DNA of 64,000 bases from contig JAIELP010000004.1 of assembly GCA_019752925.1 (NCBI GenBank), positions 1-64,000 of the forward strand, read 5' to 3'. This DNA is from a bacterium. Its GTDB lineage: Bacteria > Bdellovibrionota > Bdellovibrionia > Bdellovibrionales > Bdellovibrionaceae. Below, piece by piece: positions 5,301-32,617 of the stretch. Position 1 is the first letter of the stretch. Each line of letters begins with the position of its first letter. A program made the position numbers and the translations under genes. The notes under the pieces are model-generated. The model was not told the origin of the DNA and searched no databases. It worked only from the letters and a program-made list of their open reading frames with translations.

Positions 5301-8035
5301 GTAATGGTGATAGTGGTGGTGGAGCTGGTGGAATTGGTATAGATTATATTTGTTCGGCTGTGCCGAGTTTGTGGTTGTGTCACCCAGATAATCCAAGCAA
5401 TACCGGAACAATTACAATTACTCCTATCAATGAGTGTAATCTTAGCTGGACAATAAACGACATTGTAAGCGCCAACCCTTCAATGAGTTTACCAATGGCA
5501 TTTACAAATTATGTATCAAGCTGCTTACCAAGCGGATTGCCGTTTATTCCGGATAACAAAAAGCCAATTTTAACTGTGACAGCTCCTGTTCAAAATCAGG
5601 TTGCAACTGAAAATACGGTTCGAGTTATAGGCTATGTGGATGATGTTACTTCGCAAGTTAAAATTAACGGTGAAGTAGTAAATACATTGCGTGGTCCGAA
5701 TGGGTTGCATTTTGATGTAGATGTTTTAGTGCCTACCAACTTAAAGATTTTAGTTGAAGCTTCGGATGCGAGTGGGAATTTGGCTGAGCCAATTGAAGTT
5801 ACTTTACAGAACAATACTGCAAATTTAGGTGCTGTTTCTAAAATTAGTATTGGTGAAAGTCACGCATGTGTACTCATTCAAAACAAGATTAAATGCTGGG
5901 GCGGAAACCAAGGTGGACAGTTGGGTAATGGTGGAGCCCTTAGTACAAATACACCAACAAATGTTGTGAGCTTACCAAATGGTGAAATTACAAGTTTTTC
6001 GGCAGGTCGATTTGCAACGTGTGCTGTAGTAGATGAAGCTGTTTATTGTTGGGGTAGTGGATTGCCAGGAGTTCCGCGTACTAACTCTGCCATGTTACGC
6101 TCAGGTCTTGAAACTGGTGTTAAAGCAGTTTCTGTCGGAAATACGATGGCTTGTGCATTAATGTTAGACGGAGTTGTAAAGTGTTGGAATGGCCCACAAC
6201 CTTATATAATCGCGGGATTAGAGGGTGATGAAGTTGATCAATTAGCAGTTGCCGAGGGGGTTGCTTGCGTTAGTTCTAAAAACGTTGGTGGCGTAAAATG
6301 TTGGGGATCATTTACACCAACTAGAGTAGTTGGATCTTCTCCTGTACAAATACCTGGGATAGATGAAAAAATATTAAGTTTAAGTGTCGGCTTTAGATTT
6401 ATGTGCGCAGTGACTGTAAATAACAAATTAAAATGCTGGGGACAGCAAGAAGACGGCTCATTTTCATTAATTGCGCAAGAAATGTTTAGTTTTAACTCAA
6501 TCAAAAAAGTATCAACTTCAATGGCTTCTAGAAATGTATGTATTCAAGAACAGTCCGGATTGAAGTGTTGGGGGCCAGGAGAGTTGGGGCAGCTTGGTGA
6601 CGGATTAAATGCGAATAGTTTAGAGCCTGTTGATGTGGTCTCATTGAATGGATATATTGATGACTTCGACGTAGGTGCAGGATTTTCATGTGCTTTGATT
6701 AGAGGAGAAGTTTATTGTTGGGGTCTGAACTACCAAGATAAACAAAAAATTGAATTTAAGCCTATTATAACAGTAACTTCACCTGTGCAAAATCAACAAG
6801 TTTCAGGGAGTATACAGGTTACTGGTTACGTAGATAATGTCAATGCAGCTGTTAAAGTAAATGGTCAGCAAGTTATTACAACACCAAGTGCACAAGGGGC
6901 GTATTTTAGCGTCAACATAGTTCCGCCATTAGATTTAAAAGTTAAAGTAGAAGCTGTAGATGAATTTGGAGTAAGTGCAGACATTATTGAAATCAATTTA
7001 ACTAATGTTGCCATTTCAATTAATAATTCATTAATCGACTTACATAACTTTGGATTAGTGATAATTGAAGGAGACGTGTATACGTGGGAAAATGATGCAA
7101 CAACATTATCTCGAGTAAGTGGTATTCAAAACGCGACTGCTGTTACAGTTGGTAAAAAACACACTTTCTTCTGTGCCATATCTGACAAGAAAGTTTATTG
7201 CTGGGGTCAAAACAATAGTGCACAAATAGGTATTCCAACTTCACAAGCGGATTTTGTTGCCAATCCTACATTTGTTGATCTCGGTGGTGATGTTGAGCAG
7301 GTAAAAGCTGGCTACGGTCATGTTTGCGCACTCTTATCTAATAAGACTGTTAAATGTTGGGGTGGAGGTTTTGGTTACGGTTTGGGAAATGGTAGTATTG
7401 GAAGTTCATCTCCTTCTCCTGTAACTGTTCTTAATCTGGACAATACGGTTACTAGTATTGGCTCATATGGTAATTCGAGCTGTGCATCACTTGCTTCGGG
7501 AGTCGTAAAATGTTGGGGAGCTAATTATAGTGGACAACTTGGTGATGGTACAACAATAGATCGTGCAGCGCCTGTAGCAGTTCAAGGTATTAATGTACTT
7601 GGTGTTGTAACCAATATTTCAGGAATCGAAGACGAGCGAGGCAGTTTAGGTGGTGCATGCGCTCAAAGTAATGATCAAATTAAATGCTGGGGAAGCTTTG
7701 ATATCAATGGGGATGGTACTTTAAATAGTGCAAATCCACCGATTTACCCACTGAATTTACTGCAGCCATTAGTTGGCAATTCTTTTGTTGCTGGCGCCGG
7801 AAATAAATGTGTAATTGATGCCACAGGTATAAAATGTTGGGGAGAGGACAGTAGAATTTTTGGCCCATCACAGTCTTCGATTGTAACTGTGCCAACTTCT
7901 GTTAGTTATGTAAACGCTTCAAATATTAAAGCTATAGCGCTTAAACGAAGTCTTTGCTATTTAACTAATAGCAACGATGTTTACTGTGCTGGCCACAATT
8001 ACAGTAACGGCGTGCCAATTAAATTAAATAGATAG
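2357..8035 (+). CDS. Giant secreted PKD/Ig/RCC1 twin beta-propeller protein
   Basis: 1,892 residues, GTG start with AAGGA eight bases upstream. Order seen: signal peptide (1-20, ends VEA); PKD-like domain (~27-110); several Ig/cadherin-like modules with DRAGN- or DIFGN-type motifs (~245-715); a Cys-containing, partly helical region (~718-945); a Gly/Ser-rich linker (~948-995); an Ig module starting KPILTVTAPVQNQ (~1070-1152); an RCC1 propeller (~1157-1462); a second Ig module starting KPIITVTSPVQNQ (~1467-1552); a second RCC1 propeller to the C terminus. Blades carry KCWG or YCWG paired with a Cys 6-9 residues earlier, suggesting one disulfide hairpin per blade, which fits an oxidising extracellular location. 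RCC1 folds usually bind proteins; a surface recognition or adhesion role is inference. No sortase, autotransporter or anchoring domain is visible. Confidence 0.85.
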   Translation: MKNNLTSFVLLLLCVFNVEAHNNNSNKKPVIDAYISILDAQHLTSVRVNIEKSDDPDGKITKTEINFGDGFVSSKDDVIHQYAADGVYTITIKAWDNRNAVSVVTKNIDVASNLILSDGASIYGPIGIKDNKTYSFNASASQLQKKFKLILTQQPENRYSMYLNKFLNWCYKFLGHNHNDKFEANVELNGIEIFAKNEISKNTLKAEKFVNLKNSNKIKADFDHEHGNKFKVEIKEVISLKDEVAPVITINVQSGSEVNTDHIPVSISDISGQVTTDVWKVMPLAQNGPPVSAGTVNQHILTTTASSFNIPLTEGLNSFILRSQDIFGNVSNYYYINNILYDGTAPEILSLTPQLAGTFYFYEIPPVQVTLPITKFFDIVASERIASLELISGASNLNLVFTDVARTKVSGRFTINQAGISVVQFKIKDYVGNERVYTYSINNIIVTEPIQVSLQPAPNQTYYTNQHFFNISYQMQANYPVYSKAFVNTHLQATTDGANASISVPLTQEGVNNIDMHFLYSFEPRFAAATGAWTIIKDSVAPSLSSSAPDNNTTVYTNHLPLTIPVSLQFSENLTNISVNGVSSPTFTNSYSTNHFVSSAGTSTLEILASDRAGNIGQLSHQINVQFSDASLVLKLSESSTDILTNKISIPLSGTASEKLRSIKMNNQLISIAGDGKSFDAVFEAPADGLYHIVFEGTDIYGNLATTDTYIRVLSGMPDGIENYKGPDGTYTNGQYEIDAGQLFGSGPGGDICNALDSFFGGTSDIELEDVSSVLGHLPKDYQKKIPKVPSLENFYKKHIDRDPANIVKAGYLMMCHGFELFASGDCQKNRELFKKVMRKYPEPFIIRKLPVPAIVQDFLIKRYNICSGLDTSGLGCKDLSIFVPFLADLALPGIGQMINSDMAEFVTDTFLCKELCDQPQYASTPLCQEFELPKIPNIPNFGAPRFSFPSGGSGGSWGRGGSWPGGGGGSCGGWFQPRCPGNGDSGGGAGGIGIDYICSAVPSLWLCHPDNPSNTGTITITPINECNLSWTINDIVSANPSMSLPMAFTNYVSSCLPSGLPFIPDNKKPILTVTAPVQNQVATENTVRVIGYVDDVTSQVKINGEVVNTLRGPNGLHFDVDVLVPTNLKILVEASDASGNLAEPIEVTLQNNTANLGAVSKISIGESHACVLIQNKIKCWGGNQGGQLGNGGALSTNTPTNVVSLPNGEITSFSAGRFATCAVVDEAVYCWGSGLPGVPRTNSAMLRSGLETGVKAVSVGNTMACALMLDGVVKCWNGPQPYIIAGLEGDEVDQLAVAEGVACVSSKNVGGVKCWGSFTPTRVVGSSPVQIPGIDEKILSLSVGFRFMCAVTVNNKLKCWGQQEDGSFSLIAQEMFSFNSIKKVSTSMASRNVCIQEQSGLKCWGPGELGQLGDGLNANSLEPVDVVSLNGYIDDFDVGAGFSCALIRGEVYCWGLNYQDKQKIEFKPIITVTSPVQNQQVSGSIQVTGYVDNVNAAVKVNGQQVITTPSAQGAYFSVNIVPPLDLKVKVEAVDEFGVSADIIEINLTNVAISINNSLIDLHNFGLVIIEGDVYTWENDATTLSRVSGIQNATAVTVGKKHTFFCAISDKKVYCWGQNNSAQIGIPTSQADFVANPTFVDLGGDVEQVKAGYGHVCALLSNKTVKCWGGGFGYGLGNGSIGSSSPSPVTVLNLDNTVTSIGSYGNSSCASLASGVVKCWGANYSGQLGDGTTIDRAAPVAVQGINVLGVVTNISGIEDERGSLGGACAQSNDQIKCWGSFDINGDGTLNSANPPIYPLNLLQPLVGNSFVAGAGNKCVIDATGIKCWGEDSRIFGPSQSSIVTVPTSVSYVNASNIKAIALKRSLCYLTNSNDVYCAGHNYSNGVPIKLNR

Positions 8036-8224
8036 GCTGGGGCTAAAGTTTCTGTTTTAAAAACCACTGGTACAGACGGAATTAAAGACTTTTTCATTCA
8101 AATTATTAACTAGACTAGGCCTCCCAAAGTCTTAATATGGTCCGTTTTATCGGTGGATTTTAGATAAATCTGATGAAGTCTTTTATACTATAGAAGTGTT
8201 ATTTTTCATTCTTGCGGAGGCTAT

Positions 8225-9286
8225 GTGCTGCAAAGACTTTTAGTTATTACCGGAGTGCTTTTATTTTTAGGTAGCTGTATCAGCAGCTATGTACGTTTGC
8301 CGAGTTCTGCAAAGCAAGTTTATGGTAACGGCGACATCCAGCAATCATTACTTTTACTCGCGCAAAATAATATTTTAGTAAATATCCCTGAAGCTACGAC
8401 CCGTGAATTTGAAAAATCAGAAATCGATCAAAAATGCCGCTCAATTAAAGAACCTTTGTGGTCTGAAAAACTTTCAGTTTATTTAAATGAATTCCGCAAG
8501 CGTCCGGAACTTTTAAGCCGCTTTCACGTTATTGAAATGAAGCGTGCAGATACAGCTGATGTAAGAGTTCAAAAAGATTTAGATGGAGCAGTTACGCTTT
8601 CGATCAATTTTGTTAAACTTGAAAACTACGGTAAAGTTTCTTTTCAGACTAAATTACCATGTAATGGTTCTATAGCTGAATATTTAGGGCGCGAACTGGT
8701 TAAAACTAACTATGATTTTCCGGGTATAGAGAAATTTGTATTAACTCTGCAGAATCTACCTGAAAAGAAAGATCTTCCGCGTTTTCAGTTTTCAAACAAT
8801 TTCTTAAGTTACTTAGCTGAGCGCGGAGCCATGTTTAAGTTTTCGCACGAGATGTCTTTTGAAAAAACAGCTCAGGGAAAATATGTAATGGCTGAGTTAT
8901 TGAATAAGCTTTCAGAAGAAGTAAAACAACCGTTTCATCAACATCTTAATTACTGGTTTAAACAAATTAATGAGCAAAGTACGCAAGCGCATTTAATTCA
9001 GATGTTTGCGGCTCTGCCTGACCGTGAAATTAAAGCCGGCGTAAGAGTAGATGCTAAAAATGAAAACTCATCGGTAAAAGCTGCGGGTGAAGCGGATTTA
9101 ACTTATTTGTATATTACTTATAATGTAGAAAACGATCAGATTAATTCTGCAAACTTACAACAACTTGAAAAATGTTTACAGAATTTCACTGAAGATATGA
9201 GCGGAATTAAATTAAGAAAACCTGCGGCTACAGAAAAAGCCAGCTATCTACGGCCGGGTTATTCGTGTAATGTTTCAAAGCTATAA
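8225..9286 (+). CDS. Predicted outer-membrane lipoprotein, unknown function
   Basis: 353 residues. The GTG start at 8225 is set by GGAGG at 8216-8220; an ATG at 8223 is in another frame that stops within seven codons. The N terminus is a type II signal peptide with lipobox LGSC (Cys about residue 18). The mature part is soluble and charged, with no family I recognise. Its stop codon overlaps the convergent gene at 9281-10054: the two coding sequences share six bases. The only internal Cys residues visible are in QKCRS, LPCNG, EKCLQ and the C-terminal YSCNV, which may pair. Confidence 0.75.
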   Translation: MLQRLLVITGVLLFLGSCISSYVRLPSSAKQVYGNGDIQQSLLLLAQNNILVNIPEATTREFEKSEIDQKCRSIKEPLWSEKLSVYLNEFRKRPELLSRFHVIEMKRADTADVRVQKDLDGAVTLSINFVKLENYGKVSFQTKLPCNGSIAEYLGRELVKTNYDFPGIEKFVLTLQNLPEKKDLPRFQFSNNFLSYLAERGAMFKFSHEMSFEKTAQGKYVMAELLNKLSEEVKQPFHQHLNYWFKQINEQSTQAHLIQMFAALPDREIKAGVRVDAKNENSSVKAAGEADLTYLYITYNVENDQINSANLQQLEKCLQNFTEDMSGIKLRKPAATEKASYLRPGYSCNVSKL

Positions 9287-10054
9287 GTTAGTGCCGGTCC
9301 CTGTTATAGACCAACCCTGCTGCAGAGTCCAGCTGATGCCGCCGTTATTGCTAGAAAATAGATATGAAGTGTTAGCGGTAATTCCTGGGCCAGGGCCTGC
9401 GGCCACGTTAGCTCCTGGTGTTGTAGACGTATTGTCGACGTAGTAAGATGCAGTGTTTGCTACACCAAACGCGCCCGTGGCTCTGTTGTGAGTTCCAAAC
9501 ACTACTACGGCGTACTGATTGCCAAAACCATCCGGCCTATAAAAAGTAAATTCATAAACAATATTGGGAGATCCTGGGGTTCCGCTAGTTGCAGCGGTGC
9601 CTTCGTAGCGAATTCGGAAGTAATTAGTTCCAGAAATAAAATAAACACGTTGGTAGGAGTTATCATTGGCTCCAAGCATAAATTTATTTAAAGCTGGGTT
9701 TGAGCCACTTATCACTGGTTGACTGCACGGTGGCCCGCAAACATTTGATCCAGTATCGCGTGTAATAAATGTGTTAGAGCCTACAAACCAAGAGCGGCTC
9801 GAGATTGAGTTTATGGCAAAGTTAAAAGGTAGCGTAACTCCTATATTTGCGTCATCTGCGCTGGTGCTTATAATTTGAGTCATTCCTGCAATGCCTTGTA
9901 GGGTTGCTACAGTGGGCGATGGGGTTGGGCAGTAAGAGGCTTTACAAGGCGTTAAGTCCTGCCAAAATGAGTTGGGTATAAATATTTGAGAATGCGCAGC
10001 TTCGAATATAAACTGTATAACAATTATATAAGAAAAATTTTTAAATATACCCAT
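9281..10054 (-). CDS. Secreted beta-rich protein, unknown function
   Basis: 257 residues starting MGIFKNFSY with a signal-like hydrophobic stretch ending AAHSQ. The mature part is rich in Gly, Ser, Thr, Asn and aromatics, as in extracellular beta-sandwich or fibre-tip proteins (VTLPFNFAINSIS, YFRIRYEG, YEFTFYRPDG, YAVVVFGTHN). Four Cys fall in two close pairs: PCKASYC near residues 37-42 and VCGPPC near 105-110. Its style resembles the globular tip of fibre proteins such as the one at the left edge, but there is no fibre repeat. Only a weak ribosome site (AGAG) precedes the ATG. Confidence 0.65.
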   Translation of the reverse strand: MGIFKNFSYIIVIQFIFEAAHSQIFIPNSFWQDLTPCKASYCPTPSPTVATLQGIAGMTQIISTSADDANIGVTLPFNFAINSISSRSWFVGSNTFITRDTGSNVCGPPCSQPVISGSNPALNKFMLGANDNSYQRVYFISGTNYFRIRYEGTAATSGTPGSPNIVYEFTFYRPDGFGNQYAVVVFGTHNRATGAFGVANTASYYVDNTSTTPGANVAAGPGPGITANTSYLFSSNNGGISWTLQQGWSITGTGTNL

Positions 10055-22990: not shown

Positions 22991-23683
22991 TTACACCTGT
23001 TTGCTGACTTTATCTAACTCCTGTTGAAAGTAATTTCTCATGCTAGGGCTTTTTTCAAGTTCTAAACATTTACTAAATGCTCTTTGTGCCAATTGAAGGT
23101 TATTCATTTTTTGGTAGATCATCCCCAAACAACCCCATGCGCGTATGTTGCCAGGAGCCAGCTTTAAGCAGCTTTCAAGATAGTAAATCGCCATTGTGGG
23201 CTGTGATTCCTGCCAGAACAAATGACTGCCTAAAATAAAAAGAGCATGAACGTTATGTGGTACTCTTCTTAGTAAAGTTTTGAGCTGCATTTCTCCAGTG
23301 TCGTGAATTCCTTTTTTAAGATTGCCTTTGACTTGCATCAGTTCGATGTAATCCAGAACTTCCTGATTTTTTGGATCAATTAAATGCGCCTCAGCCAATA
23401 GGCCATTTACTTGCGATGTAGGAGCTTCGATATCAATAAGAATTTTTACGTAAGTCAGTAAAAAATTAATATCTTTTTTATACTTTTCTTCTGAGGTGTA
23501 CATTTTTCGGGCCACAACCAGTGCCATTTCTGTGCTACCTGATTCACAAAGTTCCAATAGTGAAGACGTTTGTTGGGCATTTTTAGATTGCTCAGTCGTC
23601 ATAACAGTTTTACAGAAAGGGCAAACGCCAACATAGGGACCGCTCAGAGCACCACAACCTGGACAGGCAATATCAAAACTCAT
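22991..23683 (-). CDS. Zinc-ribbon plus TPR protein
   Basis: 230 residues. An N-terminal zinc ribbon (CPGCG at ~8-12, CPFCK at ~21-25) is followed by helical repeats; the clearest TPR units are near 145-215 (HALFILGSHLFWQ, AIYYLESCLKLAPGN, AWGCLGMIYQKM, AQRAFSKCLELE). Its ATG directly follows the TAA of the SPFH gene (TAAATG), so expression is coupled and the two proteins may interact. Cytosolic; it probably acts as a scaffold. One base separates it from the convergent ybbP stop. Confidence 0.8.
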   Translation of the reverse strand: MSFDIACPGCGALSGPYVGVCPFCKTVMTTEQSKNAQQTSSLLELCESGSTEMALVVARKMYTSEEKYKKDINFLLTYVKILIDIEAPTSQVNGLLAEAHLIDPKNQEVLDYIELMQVKGNLKKGIHDTGEMQLKTLLRRVPHNVHALFILGSHLFWQESQPTMAIYYLESCLKLAPGNIRAWGCLGMIYQKMNNLQLAQRAFSKCLELEKSPSMRNYFQQELDKVSKQV

Positions 23684-24646
23684 TTAAACCTTCTTCCCGC
23701 ATGAAGAGCAGAATCGGGCGTTCGCTAAAACTCCTGAACCACAGTTAGAGCAAAATTGTGACGAATGCGAAACATCAATAGCGGCTTTTTCTTTTTCGTG
23801 ATAGTCGGCACCCATAATGCCTTTGCCTAACATCAGACCCATCATCATATGCATTGGGTTATTGGCGTCGGCTTCGGAGCCGCTTTGTCCAAGACTATTG
23901 GCCGCTTTATAAAGAAGATATTCTTTTTGCGATCCGATGATCTGAATGGCATTTTTAGCTTCCATTGCTTCTAAAATTTCTTTTGAGGGTAATGCTGAAA
24001 GCAATTGAATTTTAGAAATAGAAACGCCGTAAGAAGCGATTTCATTTTTAACCAGTTGTTCAAGCTTTTGCGAAATCTGATTATAAGACTGAGAAAGATT
24101 TTCAAGGCTCGAAACTTCTGATAAAGCCTGAGGAAGTAATTCAATGATTTGACCTTGTATAGTTTCTTCAAGTTCAGTGATACTGAAGGAAGAACGACTT
24201 CCCATAAGCTCTGTAAAAAACTGTGTAGGTTCATCTATGCAGATATTAAAGTTTCCGAAACTGCGAATTGGAATTGTGGCATTTAAGCCATTGATTTTAA
24301 CAAGCACAGGCTGCGGGGTTCCCCAGCGACGCGCAATAAACTGTTGTTTTGAAACAAAAATAAGCTCGCAACGTAAAGGGTTTTTAAAACCAAATTGCCA
24401 GTTAGCCAAACTTGTTAATAAGGGTAAGTTGTCAGTCTGAATAGTGTGGGTGCCTGAATGTAAAACATCGGCCACTTGGCCTTTATAAATAAATATTGCG
24501 GTTTGGCTGGGTTTAACCACCACAACAGTGCCTGTATACAAATCGACAGTGCCGCTGGCTGGAACCTTGGCAGCAAGTAAAGTTCCGGAAAGATCCTCAA
24601 ACTCATATATACCTTTAAAAAAAGCAGATTGATTTGTGTCTGACAT
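23684..24646 (-). CDS. SPFH/band-7 domain protein with C-terminal zinc ribbon
   Basis: 320 residues. The central part (~45-240) matches SPFH proteins of the YdjI / virion-core-like class, and a C-terminal zinc ribbon CSNCG ... CSSCG lies at ~297-316. No transmembrane helix is visible, so membrane association would be peripheral, as for B. subtilis YdjI, which helps recruit PspA-type proteins. A Met-rich stretch (NPMHMMMGLMLGKG, ~263-276) precedes the zinc ribbon. First gene of a two-gene operon with the zinc-ribbon/TPR gene. Confidence 0.85.
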   Translation of the reverse strand: MSDTNQSAFFKGIYEFEDLSGTLLAAKVPASGTVDLYTGTVVVVKPSQTAIFIYKGQVADVLHSGTHTIQTDNLPLLTSLANWQFGFKNPLRCELIFVSKQQFIARRWGTPQPVLVKINGLNATIPIRSFGNFNICIDEPTQFFTELMGSRSSFSITELEETIQGQIIELLPQALSEVSSLENLSQSYNQISQKLEQLVKNEIASYGVSISKIQLLSALPSKEILEAMEAKNAIQIIGSQKEYLLYKAANSLGQSGSEADANNPMHMMMGLMLGKGIMGADYHEKEKAAIDVSHSSQFCSNCGSGVLANARFCSSCGKKV

Positions 24647-26615: not shown

Positions 26616-26714
26616 AAGCCATACAGTTTTATTAATTTTTTTTTAATGTATTGTGGTTACTGCAATGCAAAAAATTATTTGAACTAAACATCACTTAATT
26701 TGTAAGGTAGCCTC

Positions 26715-26720
26715 TATAAT
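26715..26720 (+). promoter_or_regulatory. -10-like TATAAT upstream of permease-fusion gene
   Basis: A perfect TATAAT lies 42 bases before the start codon; the -35 region at the right spacing is poor. The gene's ribosome site AAGGTGGAG at 26751-26759 is strong. Confidence 0.4.
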
Positions 26721-26761
26721 TACTGTTAAATGAGTTTTTAAAATTAAAACAAGGTGGAGCT

Positions 26762-29700
26762 ATGTTAAAAAGGTATCTATCAGATAAGCGTATACTTCTT
26801 TCGATATTAACTATTGGAGGTTTGTTGGCCTACTTCTGGATTGAGTCGCGCTATCCACAACTTAACATGAAGCAATCCATGGGCGATCGTAATGTTGTGT
26901 TGGGATTATCATTTGATATCTGGGTACCGGTTGAAGATGGTGCTCCACTTTGGAAAAGAATTATAACAAGTACTTTAAATTGGTCTTACACCAATCGTAA
27001 AGGTATGACTTTCGGTGTTTTGCTTGCGGCCGGAATTTTAACTTTATTATCAAGATTAAATATACGTGCACCAAAGTCACCATGGTTGAACGCCTTACTT
27101 GGTATGGGAATCGGTGCTCCGCTTGGTGTTTGTGCCAACTGCGCTACGCCAATTGGGCAGGGATTTTACGATGCTGGTTTTAAAAAAGAATCCTCATTGG
27201 CCTTGGTTCTCAGTTCTCCAACATTGAACATAGTTGTATTATCAATTCCATTTACGACATTCCCTTATTATATGTCGTCGCTTAAGCTCGGTTTTACATT
27301 ATTTTTGATTTTAGTTTTAATGCCATTACTTGCTAAGTATTTCTTAAACGAAAATGCAGCCAATGTGGTTGAGCAACCAAAGGCCGAAGTTCAAATAGTT
27401 ATTGAAAGCTGGTTTTCAGCTATAAAAGGCTTTGTTGTTACATTATTAAAAAATCTTTGGTTTGTAATCGTAAGAACAGTGCCTTTAATGATTCTCGCGG
27501 GTCTCTTAGGAAGCGCTTTAATTGAGATTATTCCGTTTCAGTATTTAGATAAATTGCAGTTTTCATTTCTGTCGGTTTTGGCGGTGAGCTTTCTTGGTAC
27601 ATTTTTTCCGGTACCAGTTGCCTTTGATGTTGTAGTGGCAGGAATGCTTTTGGATTCAGGTTTACCAACTTGGATGGCAGCAACTCTGCTATTTACTTTA
27701 GGTATTTTCAGTGTGTATCCCTTGATGCAATTTGCTAAAACAATTTCTAAAAAATTTGCTGCATCTATATTTGTAACTGTGGTCATTCTAGGTATGGCTA
27801 TGGGATATATAGTTCAGATAGTGGAAAAAAATATTGCGCAGTCGACTATTACGATGTTGGATGGCGGATTTTTGTCGAGCTCCGATAAGCAGACTTTTTT
27901 AACTGATAGTAATAAAATAATTAAAGATCACTGTGAGCAATTAGTTAAGTTATCTTTACCTGGTTTCGATACAGCAGCTTGTTCGGATAAACTAAATGTT
28001 AAAGTTGCAGAACTGTTTACTAAAGACTTCTGTAATTCAGTAAGTAACCCCGATGAAAAGAAAAACTGTCTTTCAAATCAAGAAATAGAAGAAAATAAAG
28101 ATATTAAAAAATGTCTTACTAACCCAAACCCAGCAGACTGTCAGAAAAGAGTTATATACCACAATAGTATTGAACAGATTTTCGTTAAAGAGCCTATTTG
28201 CGATACTGGTGGTAATGCAAAATTAGTACCTCTATGTGAGACAGCACGCGATTTTTTTGTTACAGTTAAAAGCCAAACTGTCGATAAATGTTATAGATTG
28301 CCTGCAGAATTGCAAAAACCTTGTATACTTAAAGTTGTTGAGTTGCAGCTAGATACAGCTAAAGCAGAAAAAATATGCAGTCAGTTTGGAACCGACTTTA
28401 AAGACGAATGTTTCCTTGCGATAGTATCTGGCTATAAAGAAAAATTCAACAATGTCGCTTATTGCAAAAAAGCCGGTGATATCAAAACCATAGAGAAGTG
28501 TCAGGATATTTTGATTAAAAAACAAATTTCTAGAATGGAAAGTATTGAAGATTGCGGCATCTTCAAAGTAGCGAGTGTTAACGGTTTGTGTAAGCAACTG
28601 TATCTCGAAGCTAAGGCTATTAAAGACATACGTCTAAATTATGCAAATCTGGCACTAAATTCAACAGAGGATGTTCTCAGTTTTTCACCATTAAACGAAA
28701 AATTTGAATTCGATATGCGTAATTATGATTTGAAGCCTGAAAAACTTGAAGAACATGCGTTTTACAGCGATCCAAGCTCTAAAGTTAGCGTAACATATGT
28801 AGAACATAACAAACGTCAACTAGCTGGAGACGGTGAGAAAACATTTAAAAGGCATTTGGGTTCTGATTTCGGCATTGGCCGATTTTCAGCGGCAAGTAGC
28901 TTTGTTAACAGTGGAAGCGGACAGGCTCTAGGTTCAGCCGACATTAACGGAGACCATTACCCTGATTTAGTTACAACAATGGGTGGTTTTTTGACGGTTT
29001 ATAAAAATCTCGGCGGCAGTAAGTTTGTTGAGCTGCCTATATTTACAAATCCAAATGAGAAAATAAAAAGACGCATGAAGTGCTCCCAGGTGGGCTTTGT
29101 TGATATTAACAACGATACCTACCCGGATATTTTTTGTTCTACAGAAAAAAATGTTTTATTTTTCATAAACGATAAAAAAGAATTTAAATTTTCTAGAATT
29201 CGTCCTCTAGATAAAAATTTATTGGAGCAAAAGCCGCGCGCCATAACATTCGGTGATTTAGACCGCAATGGAAAGTTGGATGCGTATTTGGGATACTTCA
29301 CGCATTTATCAGGTCCTTACTATGAAAAGGCCAATGAAAATATGCTTTACATGCAATATGAAGACGGCAAGTTTACTCGAGTAGCTCCACCTCTGGATAA
29401 TATGGGTCCAACTATCAGTGTGTTGTTCTCTGATGTAAACAACGATGGTTGGCTAGATCTTTTTTCTGCTAATGATTTTGATATTCCGGATAACATATAT
29501 TTCGGAGGCGAAAAACAATTACTTACACCGGTTACCAAACAAATGGGTATTATACCGGCGGTACCGCTAGCTAACATGAGTTATGATACCGGCGACATTA
29601 ATAACGATCTTTTACTGGATGTCTTTACAACTGAAATTACGTTCAAGCCGGATCAGGAGCACCAACAGTACTGTCAACTTCTTGAAGACAGACAATACCG

Positions 29701-30580
29701 TGAAGTCTGTGAAGAAAACGTAATAGCTTATAAAGCAGCTAAGAGCGTAAATATAAATATGTGTAAGGATATCAAATCTAAGTTAGTTCAAAAAGAATGT
29801 GTTATTGAGGTTCTAATCCGGTTTGCAACAATTACTAAAAACGACACTATTTGCAATAAACTAATTGGTTATGAACCTCGCTGTAAGCTTATGGCTAACC
29901 GTAATAACAACATATACCCTAAGCGCGGCGATGAAATTGATCAGAAATTCCTGCAGAACGTACTTTTGCTAAATTCAGCCGATGGCAAATTTAAGGATTT
30001 AACACAGCAGTACGGTGTTAAATCAAGTTATTGGAGCTGGAGCGGTAAATTTGCAGATTTAGATAATGATACTTGGCAAGATATTTACGTGGCCAATGGC
30101 GATGATCTCTTTTCAGAAATTCATTCCAACACATTCTTCAAAAATGTGAATGGCGAAAAATTTGTCGCATCAGAAGGACCAGATGGGTTGACTGAATATC
30201 TGCATGTGCGCGGATATACATATCTAGACTATGATTTGGATGGAGATATGGACATTATGCTAATACCATTCTTGTCGCCGATGATTGTTTTTGAAAATGT
30301 TAATACAAAAAACAACTCAATCACTTTTGAGCTAAGCGATCACGAAGGCAACCGCGGTGCTGTAGGATCAAAAGTTATTATTCGTTATGGCAATGGCAAG
30401 CATCAGGTTCGCGAAGTTAAAGTAGGTGGAGGCGCATTGGCATTTGACAGTAACGTGATCCATTTCGGACTGAAAGATTTCGAGCATGTGGATTCAGTTG
30501 AAATCATAGGTACTAAAGGTAATAAGGTTGTTATTAATAAAAAATTCCCTGCTAATAAGCAGTATATCGTTTCTTTCTAG
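26762..30580 (+). CDS. Permease fused to FG-GAP propeller and UnbV/ASPIC domain
   Basis: 1,272 residues. Residues 1-355 are a polytopic permease of the DUF318/ArsP type: GIGAPLGVCANCATPIGQG (~118-136), SSPTLNIVVL, then a second half with FLGTFFPVPVAFDVVVAGM. A soluble Cys-pair helical region follows (~380-640; CLTNPNPADC, CYRLPAELQKPC, CSQFGTDFKDEC). Residues ~690-1185 carry seven FG-GAP/VCBS calcium loops (DINGDHYPDL, DINNDTYPDI, DLDRNGKLDA, DVNNDGWLDL, DINNDLLLDV, DLDNDTWQDI, DYDLDGDMDI), with a second Cys-pair insert at ~966-1045. The C terminus (~1190-1268; GAVGSKVIIRYG, IHFGLKDFEHVDSVEI) is a UnbV/ASPIC domain. The fused soluble part would be periplasmic if the last helix exits outward. 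Substrate unknown. Confidence 0.85.
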   Translation: MLKRYLSDKRILLSILTIGGLLAYFWIESRYPQLNMKQSMGDRNVVLGLSFDIWVPVEDGAPLWKRIITSTLNWSYTNRKGMTFGVLLAAGILTLLSRLNIRAPKSPWLNALLGMGIGAPLGVCANCATPIGQGFYDAGFKKESSLALVLSSPTLNIVVLSIPFTTFPYYMSSLKLGFTLFLILVLMPLLAKYFLNENAANVVEQPKAEVQIVIESWFSAIKGFVVTLLKNLWFVIVRTVPLMILAGLLGSALIEIIPFQYLDKLQFSFLSVLAVSFLGTFFPVPVAFDVVVAGMLLDSGLPTWMAATLLFTLGIFSVYPLMQFAKTISKKFAASIFVTVVILGMAMGYIVQIVEKNIAQSTITMLDGGFLSSSDKQTFLTDSNKIIKDHCEQLVKLSLPGFDTAACSDKLNVKVAELFTKDFCNSVSNPDEKKNCLSNQEIEENKDIKKCLTNPNPADCQKRVIYHNSIEQIFVKEPICDTGGNAKLVPLCETARDFFVTVKSQTVDKCYRLPAELQKPCILKVVELQLDTAKAEKICSQFGTDFKDECFLAIVSGYKEKFNNVAYCKKAGDIKTIEKCQDILIKKQISRMESIEDCGIFKVASVNGLCKQLYLEAKAIKDIRLNYANLALNSTEDVLSFSPLNEKFEFDMRNYDLKPEKLEEHAFYSDPSSKVSVTYVEHNKRQLAGDGEKTFKRHLGSDFGIGRFSAASSFVNSGSGQALGSADINGDHYPDLVTTMGGFLTVYKNLGGSKFVELPIFTNPNEKIKRRMKCSQVGFVDINNDTYPDIFCSTEKNVLFFINDKKEFKFSRIRPLDKNLLEQKPRAITFGDLDRNGKLDAYLGYFTHLSGPYYEKANENMLYMQYEDGKFTRVAPPLDNMGPTISVLFSDVNNDGWLDLFSANDFDIPDNIYFGGEKQLLTPVTKQMGIIPAVPLANMSYDTGDINNDLLLDVFTTEITFKPDQEHQQYCQLLEDRQYREVCEENVIAYKAAKSVNINMCKDIKSKLVQKECVIEVLIRFATITKNDTICNKLIGYEPRCKLMANRNNNIYPKRGDEIDQKFLQNVLLLNSADGKFKDLTQQYGVKSSYWSWSGKFADLDNDTWQDIYVANGDDLFSEIHSNTFFKNVNGEKFVASEGPDGLTEYLHVRGYTYLDYDLDGDMDIMLIPFLSPMIVFENVNTKNNSITFELSDHEGNRGAVGSKVIIRYGNGKHQVREVKVGGGALAFDSNVIHFGLKDFEHVDSVEIIGTKGNKVVINKKFPANKQYIVSF

Positions 30581-30591
30581 CGATTTACTGC

Positions 30592-31923
30592 TTAGTTACA
30601 GCTGAGTATCCGCGAATTTGTAGTAGTTATGATTTTATCGTCGTAATTTAAATCAATATTTCGCATCCAGATAGCAAAGGGAATATTACGTAATTCATTA
30701 GGGCGTGGGTTATTGCTGATCCGGCCCTTAATATTTTCACAGAGCATTTGTGCAGTTTCCAACTCAGATTTTCCGGTTCTGATGTGCACTCTAACCAATA
30801 AACTGATCTGAGCGGCTCCTATCAGTGCTCCTCGTTGCAAAATCTGAGTGGGTATCATGGTGCCATCTTCCTTACCTAGATAGTATTGCTTGGTGTAATC
30901 TAGAGGGCGCGAGTACATTTTAAACTCATTAAATGGAAATACTAGGCTTGTGGTTGCGAAAGTTTGGTCCGAAGCACTGGATGGTGCCACCCAGGATATC
31001 AGCAGTATCAAAGCAGCCACTGCCGCTGAGTACTTACGTTCTTTAATTAGTGATTCGCCGGTTTGCTGTGGTTTGGTTAAAGTTAAAATCAGCAGAAAAG
31101 TAATGACGGTCCACCAAACTATATTCATAACAAGGACTATGCCGAGATGAACTATTAGCAGTATCAACATTCCGGTGCGCGCATATTTTTTTGATAAAAT
31201 TAAAAAAATGGCGGCCATTTCAAAAATAATAATACTAAATAAGGCTAAAGTACTAAAATAGGTAGGCTGTGAGAAAAAATCCACGATCCAGTCAGGTAAG
31301 CTGACGAAACCTAAACCAGTTTCATAGCGAAAACGGCTTACGTGCATTAAGAGCCCCGTATTCCACTGATTAGCCCAGAATTCTGTCGGTACTGTTAGTT
31401 TTGAAATAGCAGCTGATGCATAGGTAATACCTATAGCGCTGGCCGTGCAAAGCCAGCTTAACCAGGTTGCGTCTGCTTTATTGTTTTTAAAAAATAGCGG
31501 GGCAATGCAAGTAGCAGCCCAGTAACCGGTTAGAGCATATGTTAAAATATCAAAAGCTGGTATTCTTCCATTGGCGGCATAGCCTGTTATATGCGCGGAA
31601 ACAAGAAGTAAAGTAGAGCCGATTTTAACATACTTTTCTGTAGTAAATAAATAAGCCGCAACTCCGGTAAACAGTAGAAATAATAATTTAGAGGCATCGC
31701 CAGTTAATAAGTTTAAATTAAAACGAAAATAATTGCTGGGCTCAAGCCCGGCGCGGTATCCACTGAGGTCAACGGCCAAAAACATAAAAAGACGGGGCGG
31801 GAGCCATCTCATCCAGGTAAAGTTTAAAAACAGCAGGACGGATAAAAAGTAAAAGAGCGAAAAATAAACTTTTAAGATCTTATTTTTATTGGCGTCTGTG
31901 AGGCTTATTATGGATTTAAACAC
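30592..31923 (-). CDS. HTTM-like polytopic membrane protein
   Basis: 443 residues with about ten hydrophobic segments. Features such as FTWMRWLPP near the N terminus, an internal Lys/Trp-rich segment (AISKLTVPTEFW), and a C-terminal soluble domain after the last helix (FPFNEFKMYS, DYTKQYYLGKEDG) recall HTTM proteins, which share their fold with vitamin-K-dependent carboxylase. Activity is unknown. It is convergent with the permease fusion, 11 bases from its stop, and the pairing may be functional. Confidence 0.6.
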   Translation of the reverse strand: MFKSIISLTDANKNKILKVYFSLFYFLSVLLFLNFTWMRWLPPRLFMFLAVDLSGYRAGLEPSNYFRFNLNLLTGDASKLLFLLFTGVAAYLFTTEKYVKIGSTLLLVSAHITGYAANGRIPAFDILTYALTGYWAATCIAPLFFKNNKADATWLSWLCTASAIGITYASAAISKLTVPTEFWANQWNTGLLMHVSRFRYETGLGFVSLPDWIVDFFSQPTYFSTLALFSIIIFEMAAIFLILSKKYARTGMLILLIVHLGIVLVMNIVWWTVITFLLILTLTKPQQTGESLIKERKYSAAVAALILLISWVAPSSASDQTFATTSLVFPFNEFKMYSRPLDYTKQYYLGKEDGTMIPTQILQRGALIGAAQISLLVRVHIRTGKSELETAQMLCENIKGRISNNPRPNELRNIPFAIWMRNIDLNYDDKIITTTNSRILSCN

Positions 31924-32061
31924 TGTTGCCTTTCGATTAAGGTGTCATTTTTTTTTACACTCGAGGAGTTTTTACGTCAAATCTATTTAAGTAGAGCTGG
32001 TCTATTACATTATTATCTTCAATACATTATAACATTTAAAAAGTTTTAATGAGGAGTCATC

Positions 32062-32577
32062 ATGTTCAATAAGTTGGTTTTATTAGTTGTATTGCTGGGT
32101 TCAACCATTAGCTTTGCCGAAACCTCTGCGGTGGTTTTACAGAACGGTTCAGTTGCGCGTTGTTCTGAGGGCGGCGATGCCAATAGTCGTGCTTATAGAC
32201 TAAAAGTTATATCGGCTGACAGTGCTAAGATTATTCTACAATTAGATACATTACTTTGTATTAAAGATAACGACAAAGTTTTGCTAGTGTCGTTTCCGCT
32301 GTCTCATAAATTAGTTTTCCACAACAATAAAGACATTATTACGTATGAAATGAGTAAAGCATCTATTCAAGTTACAAACTCAGAAGGTACGCAGGAGCTA
32401 GCGCGCGTTGCAATCAATCCAAATGTTGCTTCTCAGACATTAGTAATCAAAACGCCAAATATGGATTTGAAAACTTTGGATCTGACTATTCAATCTTTAT
32501 TGCAAATCAAAATTAATGATAAATTATCGGATCAAGGTATGGTTTTTGGCGGTAACTACCGTATTATTAAACAATAA
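32062..32577 (+). CDS. Small secreted protein, unknown function
   Basis: 171 residues; GAGGAG lies six bases before the ATG. Signal peptide ends SFA (about residue 19). The mature protein is beta-rich with two Cys (ARCSEGG and LLCIKD) that could form a disulfide. No known family recognised. The ~138-base stretch upstream holds its promoter region; no convincing -35/-10 pair is seen. Confidence 0.7.
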   Translation: MFNKLVLLVVLLGSTISFAETSAVVLQNGSVARCSEGGDANSRAYRLKVISADSAKIILQLDTLLCIKDNDKVLLVSFPLSHKLVFHNNKDIITYEMSKASIQVTNSEGTQELARVAINPNVASQTLVIKTPNMDLKTLDLTIQSLLQIKINDKLSDQGMVFGGNYRIIKQ

Positions 32578-32580
32578 CTA

Positions 32581-32617
32581 AAAACATCAGAGGAGTTTTG
32601 CTTTCAGAACTCCTCTG
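32581..32617 (-). terminator. Terminator overlapping the pabC stop codon
   Basis: A 10-bp perfect stem (32588-32597 with 32608-32617, CAGAGGAGTT) is followed on the minus strand by TGTTTTTAG. It includes the last codons and the TGA of the PabC-like gene, so translating ribosomes would cover it; it also lies between the convergent genes. Confidence 0.65.

Follow-up and report, generated by a model that had tools for sequence, protein, structure and literature searches.

A conserved fusion of an ArsP_1/DUF318-superfamily permease with a CRTAC1-like FG-GAP propeller in Bdellovibrionota and on Rhodobacterales plasmids

DUF318 permeases occur widely, as do CRTAC1/ASPIC proteins, and neither group is well understood. 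In CRTAC1 proteins of vertebrates and bacteria, an FG-GAP propeller is followed by a UnbV/ASPIC domain. Canonical ArsP/DUF318 permeases stand alone, in contrast to the permease described here, which carries a fused soluble part with this same CRTAC1-like order. Among DUF318 relatives, ArsP is a methylarsenite exporter (PMC6205960), and SO_0444 was assigned to copper/zinc efflux by mutant fitness, being required during Zn or Cu stress (PMC3219624). A literature search returned no paper combining FG-GAP with DUF318, or ArsP with FG-GAP. Every domain of the fused protein is already known, and their combination was not found in the literature searched, in agreement with the view of a first-pass annotation of this DNA that the arrangement is not known from described families, even though the proteins sit in public records.

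The window, i.e., the whole stretch of 64,000 nucleotides that was analyzed, contains a frame that this annotation had described as a DUF318/ArsP-type permease with a CANC motif near residue 125, joined to a soluble region with seven FG-GAP calcium loops and a terminal UnbV/ASPIC domain. Each of these elements was recovered (Table 1). The 1272 codons begin with ATG, are closely preceded by the ribosome-binding-like sequence GGTGG, and include no internal stop; base composition does not jump across position 27830, where the permease meets the soluble part. Pfam found ArsP_1, seven FG-GAP_3 stretches, and UnbV_ASPIC, in this order and all exceeding the curated cut-offs. Three parts had been missed: an extra N-terminal transmembrane (TM) helix, a linker of Cys pairs, and a Cys-pair insert in the propeller. 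The genome contains no second ArsP_1 gene and one further UnbV_ASPIC protein.

Table 1. Features of the fused gene and of the surrounding stretch (window positions; residues refer to the fused protein)
Feature	Positions	Strand	Basis
Stretch of 6 kb with the fused gene, a 443-aa membrane protein, and a 171-aa exported protein	26616..32586		Missing from five congeners
Complete fused ORF, 1272 aa	26762..30580	+	Single open frame; whole-length homologues
Extra N-terminal TM helix, residues 11-27, after a Lys/Arg-rich N-terminus	26792..26842	+	Family hydropathy; N-terminal flank net +2.1
Conserved 53-residue extracytoplasmic loop, residues 28-80, S-R-Y-P-x-L-x-x-K motif	26843..27001	+	Alignments
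ArsP_1/DUF318 permease domain, residues 82-352	27005..27817	+	Pfam PF03773, E 1.5e-13
CANC, residues 124-127	27131..27142	+	C124, N126, and C127 invariant in fused subfamily
Linker of ~30-aa two-Cys helical-hairpin repeats, residues 391-610, 16 Cys	27932..28591	+	Cys spacing test
FG-GAP beta-propeller, ~residues 691-1186, seven calcium loops	28832..30319	+	Pfam; loop motif; AF2 model; CRTAC1 fold match
Three-hairpin Cys insert in propeller, residues ~966-1049, six Cys	29657..29908	+	Hydropathy; Cys spacing; AF2 model
UnbV/ASPIC domain, residues 1200-1265	30359..30556	+	Pfam PF07593, E 5.5e-10

Searching the whole protein against 291 genomes of the phylum revealed intact homologues, with the domains in identical order, in G187, G200, G221, and G264, the last of which has two divergent copies. 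In G194 it revealed both halves of a homologue, each stopping at a contig edge. The permease profile, applied to 369 genomes, gave a bimodal distribution. Ten strong matches (E<=3e-78) in nine genomes all fall within frames 966-1463 aa long, except that of G194, whose 573-aa frame runs off the contig end. The remaining matches (E>=7e-9) are weak, do not belong to this fusion, and are mostly stand-alone ArsP proteins of ~280-480 aa, so that no unfused case of the subfamily was found in the 369 genomes. Eight Rhodobacterales plasmid records also carry the fused protein, seven of them intact, under no public annotation other than "FG-GAP-like repeat-containing protein"; in the broken one, from Parasedimentitalea marina (L035 8046-11067), the gene is split into three annotated frames. 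The same order is thus present in 9 of the 369 phylum genomes (one split) and in eight plasmid records (one broken), and the domains are not relegated to separate proteins in the relatives. The gene occurs in only 1 of the 14 genomes of its genus (G000), as might be expected if misassembly, recombination, or a missed frameshift had united two genes. This origin is vanishingly improbable, and misassembly or a missed frameshift is rejected, because independent assemblies from other families and from Rhodobacterales show these domains in identical order within a single open frame. These results confirm that positions 26762-30580 encode a real, conserved permease-plus-propeller protein design.

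In a phylogenetic tree, a 100/100 branch parts 16 fused permeases from nine stand-alone ArsP proteins, and the fused permease lineage may therefore have had a single origin. Beyond the phylum and the plasmid collection, a single scan of genome contigs returned only permease-less propellers, and 50,697 phage records gave no match to the fused protein. Phage origin or spread was considered and set aside, since viral-contig scans turned up nothing closer than a distant ArsP and a distant FG-GAP protein. On one contig of the viral collection (L090 2995-4335), an ArsP permease is followed by a His/Cys-rich stretch and, by eye, an apparent heavy-metal-associated (HMA) domain, making this a different ArsP fusion. 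A role as a defence system was likewise dropped, as PADLOC gave no match. In G187, a 139-aa frame with a start like that of the fused protein and a propeller-like end, located ~10 kb upstream of the intact gene (L089 8444-8863, + strand), looks like an internally deleted copy.

The permease half scored 51.1 bits against PF03773 (gathering score 32.3), covering profile positions 20-293 of 294, and the ArsP_1 profile matched 12/12 aligned fused members (E<=0.01). The permease core is common to the fused proteins and to ArsP/DUF318 permeases such as Campylobacter jejuni ArsP, including the first Cys and the Pro of the first-repeat motif. An alignment of the 12 fused members contains 41 invariant columns, G-V-C-x-N-C among them. 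The C-x-C of repeat 1 in canonical ArsP is replaced in the fused subfamily by C-x-N-C, and the repeat-2 Y-I-C-A-S of stand-alone ArsP by F-P-x-P-x-x-F-D, in which the Asp is invariant and Cys is lacking; the canonical combination of C-x-C in repeat 1 with Cys in repeat 2 was thus not found. Stand-alone ArsP proteins also lack the N-terminal TM helix and the 53-residue loop of the fused proteins. Although the SO_0444 copper/zinc efflux (NF033936) and SaoE (NF040736) families are the best curated NCBIfam matches, the fused protein belongs to neither, with 32.3 bits for a cut-off of 300 and 25.7 bits for a cut-off of 325, respectively; NF033936, the best of the two, was seen in 10/12 members, far under its cut-off. 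On these profile and motif grounds, the fused permease is placed inside the ArsP_1/DUF318 superfamily and is not a canonical ArsP. The curated-family libraries searched (Pfam and NCBIfam) hold no family of its own for the C-x-N-C permease subfamily or for the Cys-hairpin stalk.

FG-GAP_3 matched seven stretches of the soluble part (E 8.5e-31), and loops of the D-x-[DN]-x-[DNG]-xxx-D type start at residues 727, 781, 832, 891, 945, 1099, and 1156. Shuffling the soluble part 20,000 times produced at most 4 calcium-type loops versus the 7 observed, and residues 1-700 contain none. Relatives of solved structure could be recognized for the propeller by fold, none of use having come from sequence searches. 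Residues 663-1272, modelled with AF2 (pLDDT 73.7, pTM 0.78), matched CRTAC1 (9etn) with a Foldseek E of 5e-21, and aligned with this murine structure over 445 residues with a VIA Z of 37.1 and an rmsd of 2.7, the next entries scoring 29.4. Both features used to recognize CRTAC1-like/UnbV-ASPIC proteins, namely a calcium-loop propeller that precedes UnbV_ASPIC and the CRTAC1 fold, were therefore found. The propeller differs from that of CRTAC1 in being tethered to a permease and in holding the Cys-hairpin insert. A further comparison is provided by a 780-aa protein from Leptospirales (L031, JABABJ010000169.1), whose propeller is 34-37% identical and contains the same three Cys hairpins. Unlike the fused protein, it has no permease and a single N-terminal TM helix.

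The Cys residues of the linker are mostly 11-12 and 18 residues apart, in alternation, a regularity equaled by 0/100,000 random placements and observed likewise in G187 and G264b. Pfam gave no informative match to the linker; a weak A_deaminase_N match was taken as chance arising from helical, Cys-rich sequence. The Cys pairs define ~8 repeats in the window protein (7 pairs under a strict rule), ~9 in G187, and 12 (strict rule) in G325. Among relatives the number ranges from zero (Roseobacter, G200, G221, and G264a proteins) to 13 (G264b). The two G264 genes, one with 13 hairpins and the other with none, are paralogues placed head to head, 36 bases apart (L042 2331-5456, - strand, and 5493-9854, + strand). 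The propeller insert consists of the same type of repeat, and its Cys pattern is present in every complete fused member, with three pairs in nearly all and two in G264a and G221. In the AF2 model, the insert forms three short-helix/long-helix hairpins; in a model of the permease and linker made from a two-row alignment, the helix pattern of residues 490-620 (block pLDDT ~54-72) fits such hairpins. The two Cys at fixed hairpin positions suggest disulfide staples, and their pairing in both linker and insert points to an oxidizing compartment.

The topology of the permease was deduced from charges, helix count, and homology; the AF2 model of the permease plus linker (pLDDT 39.6, pTM 0.25) was not used for this purpose. 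Among 16 fused proteins, mean charges are +2.1 for the N-terminus, +2.7 for loop2 (after TM2), +1.6 for loop8 (before the last TM), and -1.1 for loop6 (after TM6). By the positive-inside rule, with the N-terminus inside, the region past the last TM is predicted to lie outside. A helix count in which all segments span the membrane is at odds with the loop after CANC (+1.1) and with the near-neutral central loop, making re-entrant segments likely. In L031, the propeller and Cys insert follow one N-terminal TM helix with a basic N-terminal flank, an arrangement that also places the propeller outside. Together, these features support a cytoplasmic N-terminus and a periplasmic linker and propeller, as predicted from sequence. 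The Cys spacing, the charges, and the L031 topology thus support the extracytoplasmic propeller of the first-pass annotation. Its term "extracellular" was too strong and is replaced here by periplasmic, because an inner-membrane protein of a Gram-negative host faces the periplasm. The ligand sensing or docking that it offered as one reading is likewise only a putative role. The fused architecture is well supported, and so is the predicted export of the propeller.

In five congeners, the PlsC gene adjoins the aminodeoxychorismate-lyase/pabB/pabA genes, whereas the two are parted by ~6 kb in the window. The simplest reading is that this stretch was gained by transfer, the alternative being its loss from all other congeners. 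The 443-aa multi-helix membrane protein encoded there (30592-31923, - strand) has zero Pfam matches, a 29% identical copy at G000:C1:75987-77210, and a partial copy in G203. A second, similar difference lies at 22991-24646, where Band-7 and TPR-like genes separate an ABC-transporter gene from Sua5; these genes are absent there in congeners L092-L094, in which the ABC gene is directly beside Sua5.

The neighbourhoods of the fused gene vary from genome to genome in the phylum. Genes linked to copper, haem, or redox chemistry, listed here locus by locus with no background rate for comparison, comprise SCO1/SenC and a separate CRTAC1-like protein directly upstream on the same strand in G194 (L046 2266-4194, - strand), redoxin proteins with Cu2_monooxygenase domains in G187, and two cytochromes c in G200, with a counterpart pair beside the fused gene of G339. 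No metal-related neighbour was found around the gene in the window. On the Roseobacter plasmids, a conserved ~140-aa protein adjoins or lies close to the fused gene in 6/6 intact loci examined; this family (L034 and L036-L040, e.g., L036 7410-7808) has a signal-peptide-like start and a mean column identity of 68%. A tail-fibre-like protein is encoded at five loci, giant DUF7933/Ig proteins at four (one being the broken locus), and sugar/polysaccharide, sulfotransferase, or T2SS genes are near in some. Neither the window nor the other loci of its phylum had any of these partners close to the fused gene, and no single partner gene is conserved across the phylum loci and Roseobacter.

For the function of the fused protein, we tentatively favor, at a likelihood falling a little short of probable, a model in which a permease of the inner membrane transports a thiol-binding metal or metalloid and a stalked periplasmic propeller docks a partner. 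The ArsP_1/DUF318-superfamily permease would have a periplasmic adaptor permanently attached. By analogy with the named DUF318 relatives, the C-x-N-C site would handle a cargo that binds thiols (copper, zinc, or a trivalent metalloid), moved probably from the cytoplasm to the periplasm. The stalk would hold the propeller off the membrane, and the propeller would dock a periplasmic or outer-surface partner (a metallo- or haem protein, or a glycan), so that transport would be tied to delivery or recognition there. One group may use a metalloprotein as this partner and the other a surface polymer. We infer the cargo, its direction, and the partner from these comparisons. A thiophilic metal is favored by NF033936 as the best NCBIfam match and by some of the copper, haem, or redox neighbours; the Roseobacter neighbours, which are surface-fibre, polysaccharide, and sulfotransferase genes and not metal genes, argue against it. 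The cargo may also differ, since the Cys pattern (C-x-N-C without a repeat-2 Cys) is unlike that of canonical ArsP.

These same Roseobacter partners, including the T2SS or polysaccharide genes of some loci, and the existence of a permease-less CRTAC1-like propeller in L031 would fit a protein whose business end is the propeller, acting as the inner-membrane part of a cassette for assembly or secretion of surface fibres or polysaccharides, with the permease either delivering an ion or small molecule that assembly requires or contributing a redox/thiol role. We regard this as unlikely; the absence of such partners from the window and the other phylum loci counts against it. The loss of the repeat-2 Cys motif, together with the substitution of one TM helix for the permease in L031, would instead be compatible with a membrane-tethered CRTAC1-like binding protein, in which the permease is a non-transporting multi-helix anchor or sensor. 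This is distinctly doubtful given that the permease is no less conserved than the propeller, with mean column identities of 54% and 44%, respectively (the propeller alignment including L031), and retains its 41 invariant columns, C-x-N-C included. For the close pair G200 and G339, dN/dS was 0.054 for the permease, 0.162 for the linker, and 0.061 for the propeller. Both halves are thus under strong purifying selection in this one pair, and constraint on both counts against a decayed anchor.

The metal or metalloid permease with a docked partner, extended further, would amount to a new transporter class spread horizontally among Gram-negatives, in which the propeller sits on an extendable disulfide-stapled stalk and partner binding gates or directs transport; we hold this broader proposal to be somewhat unlikely. 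If the propeller does direct transport, the protein would couple its permease with a periplasmic partner in an unusual manner. The stalk, with its variable number of disulfide-type hairpins matched here by no informative Pfam family, is a further feature of the design. A natural, conserved fusion is a strong clue that the functions of DUF318 and CRTAC1/ASPIC proteins can be linked, and it makes both functions testable in one gene.
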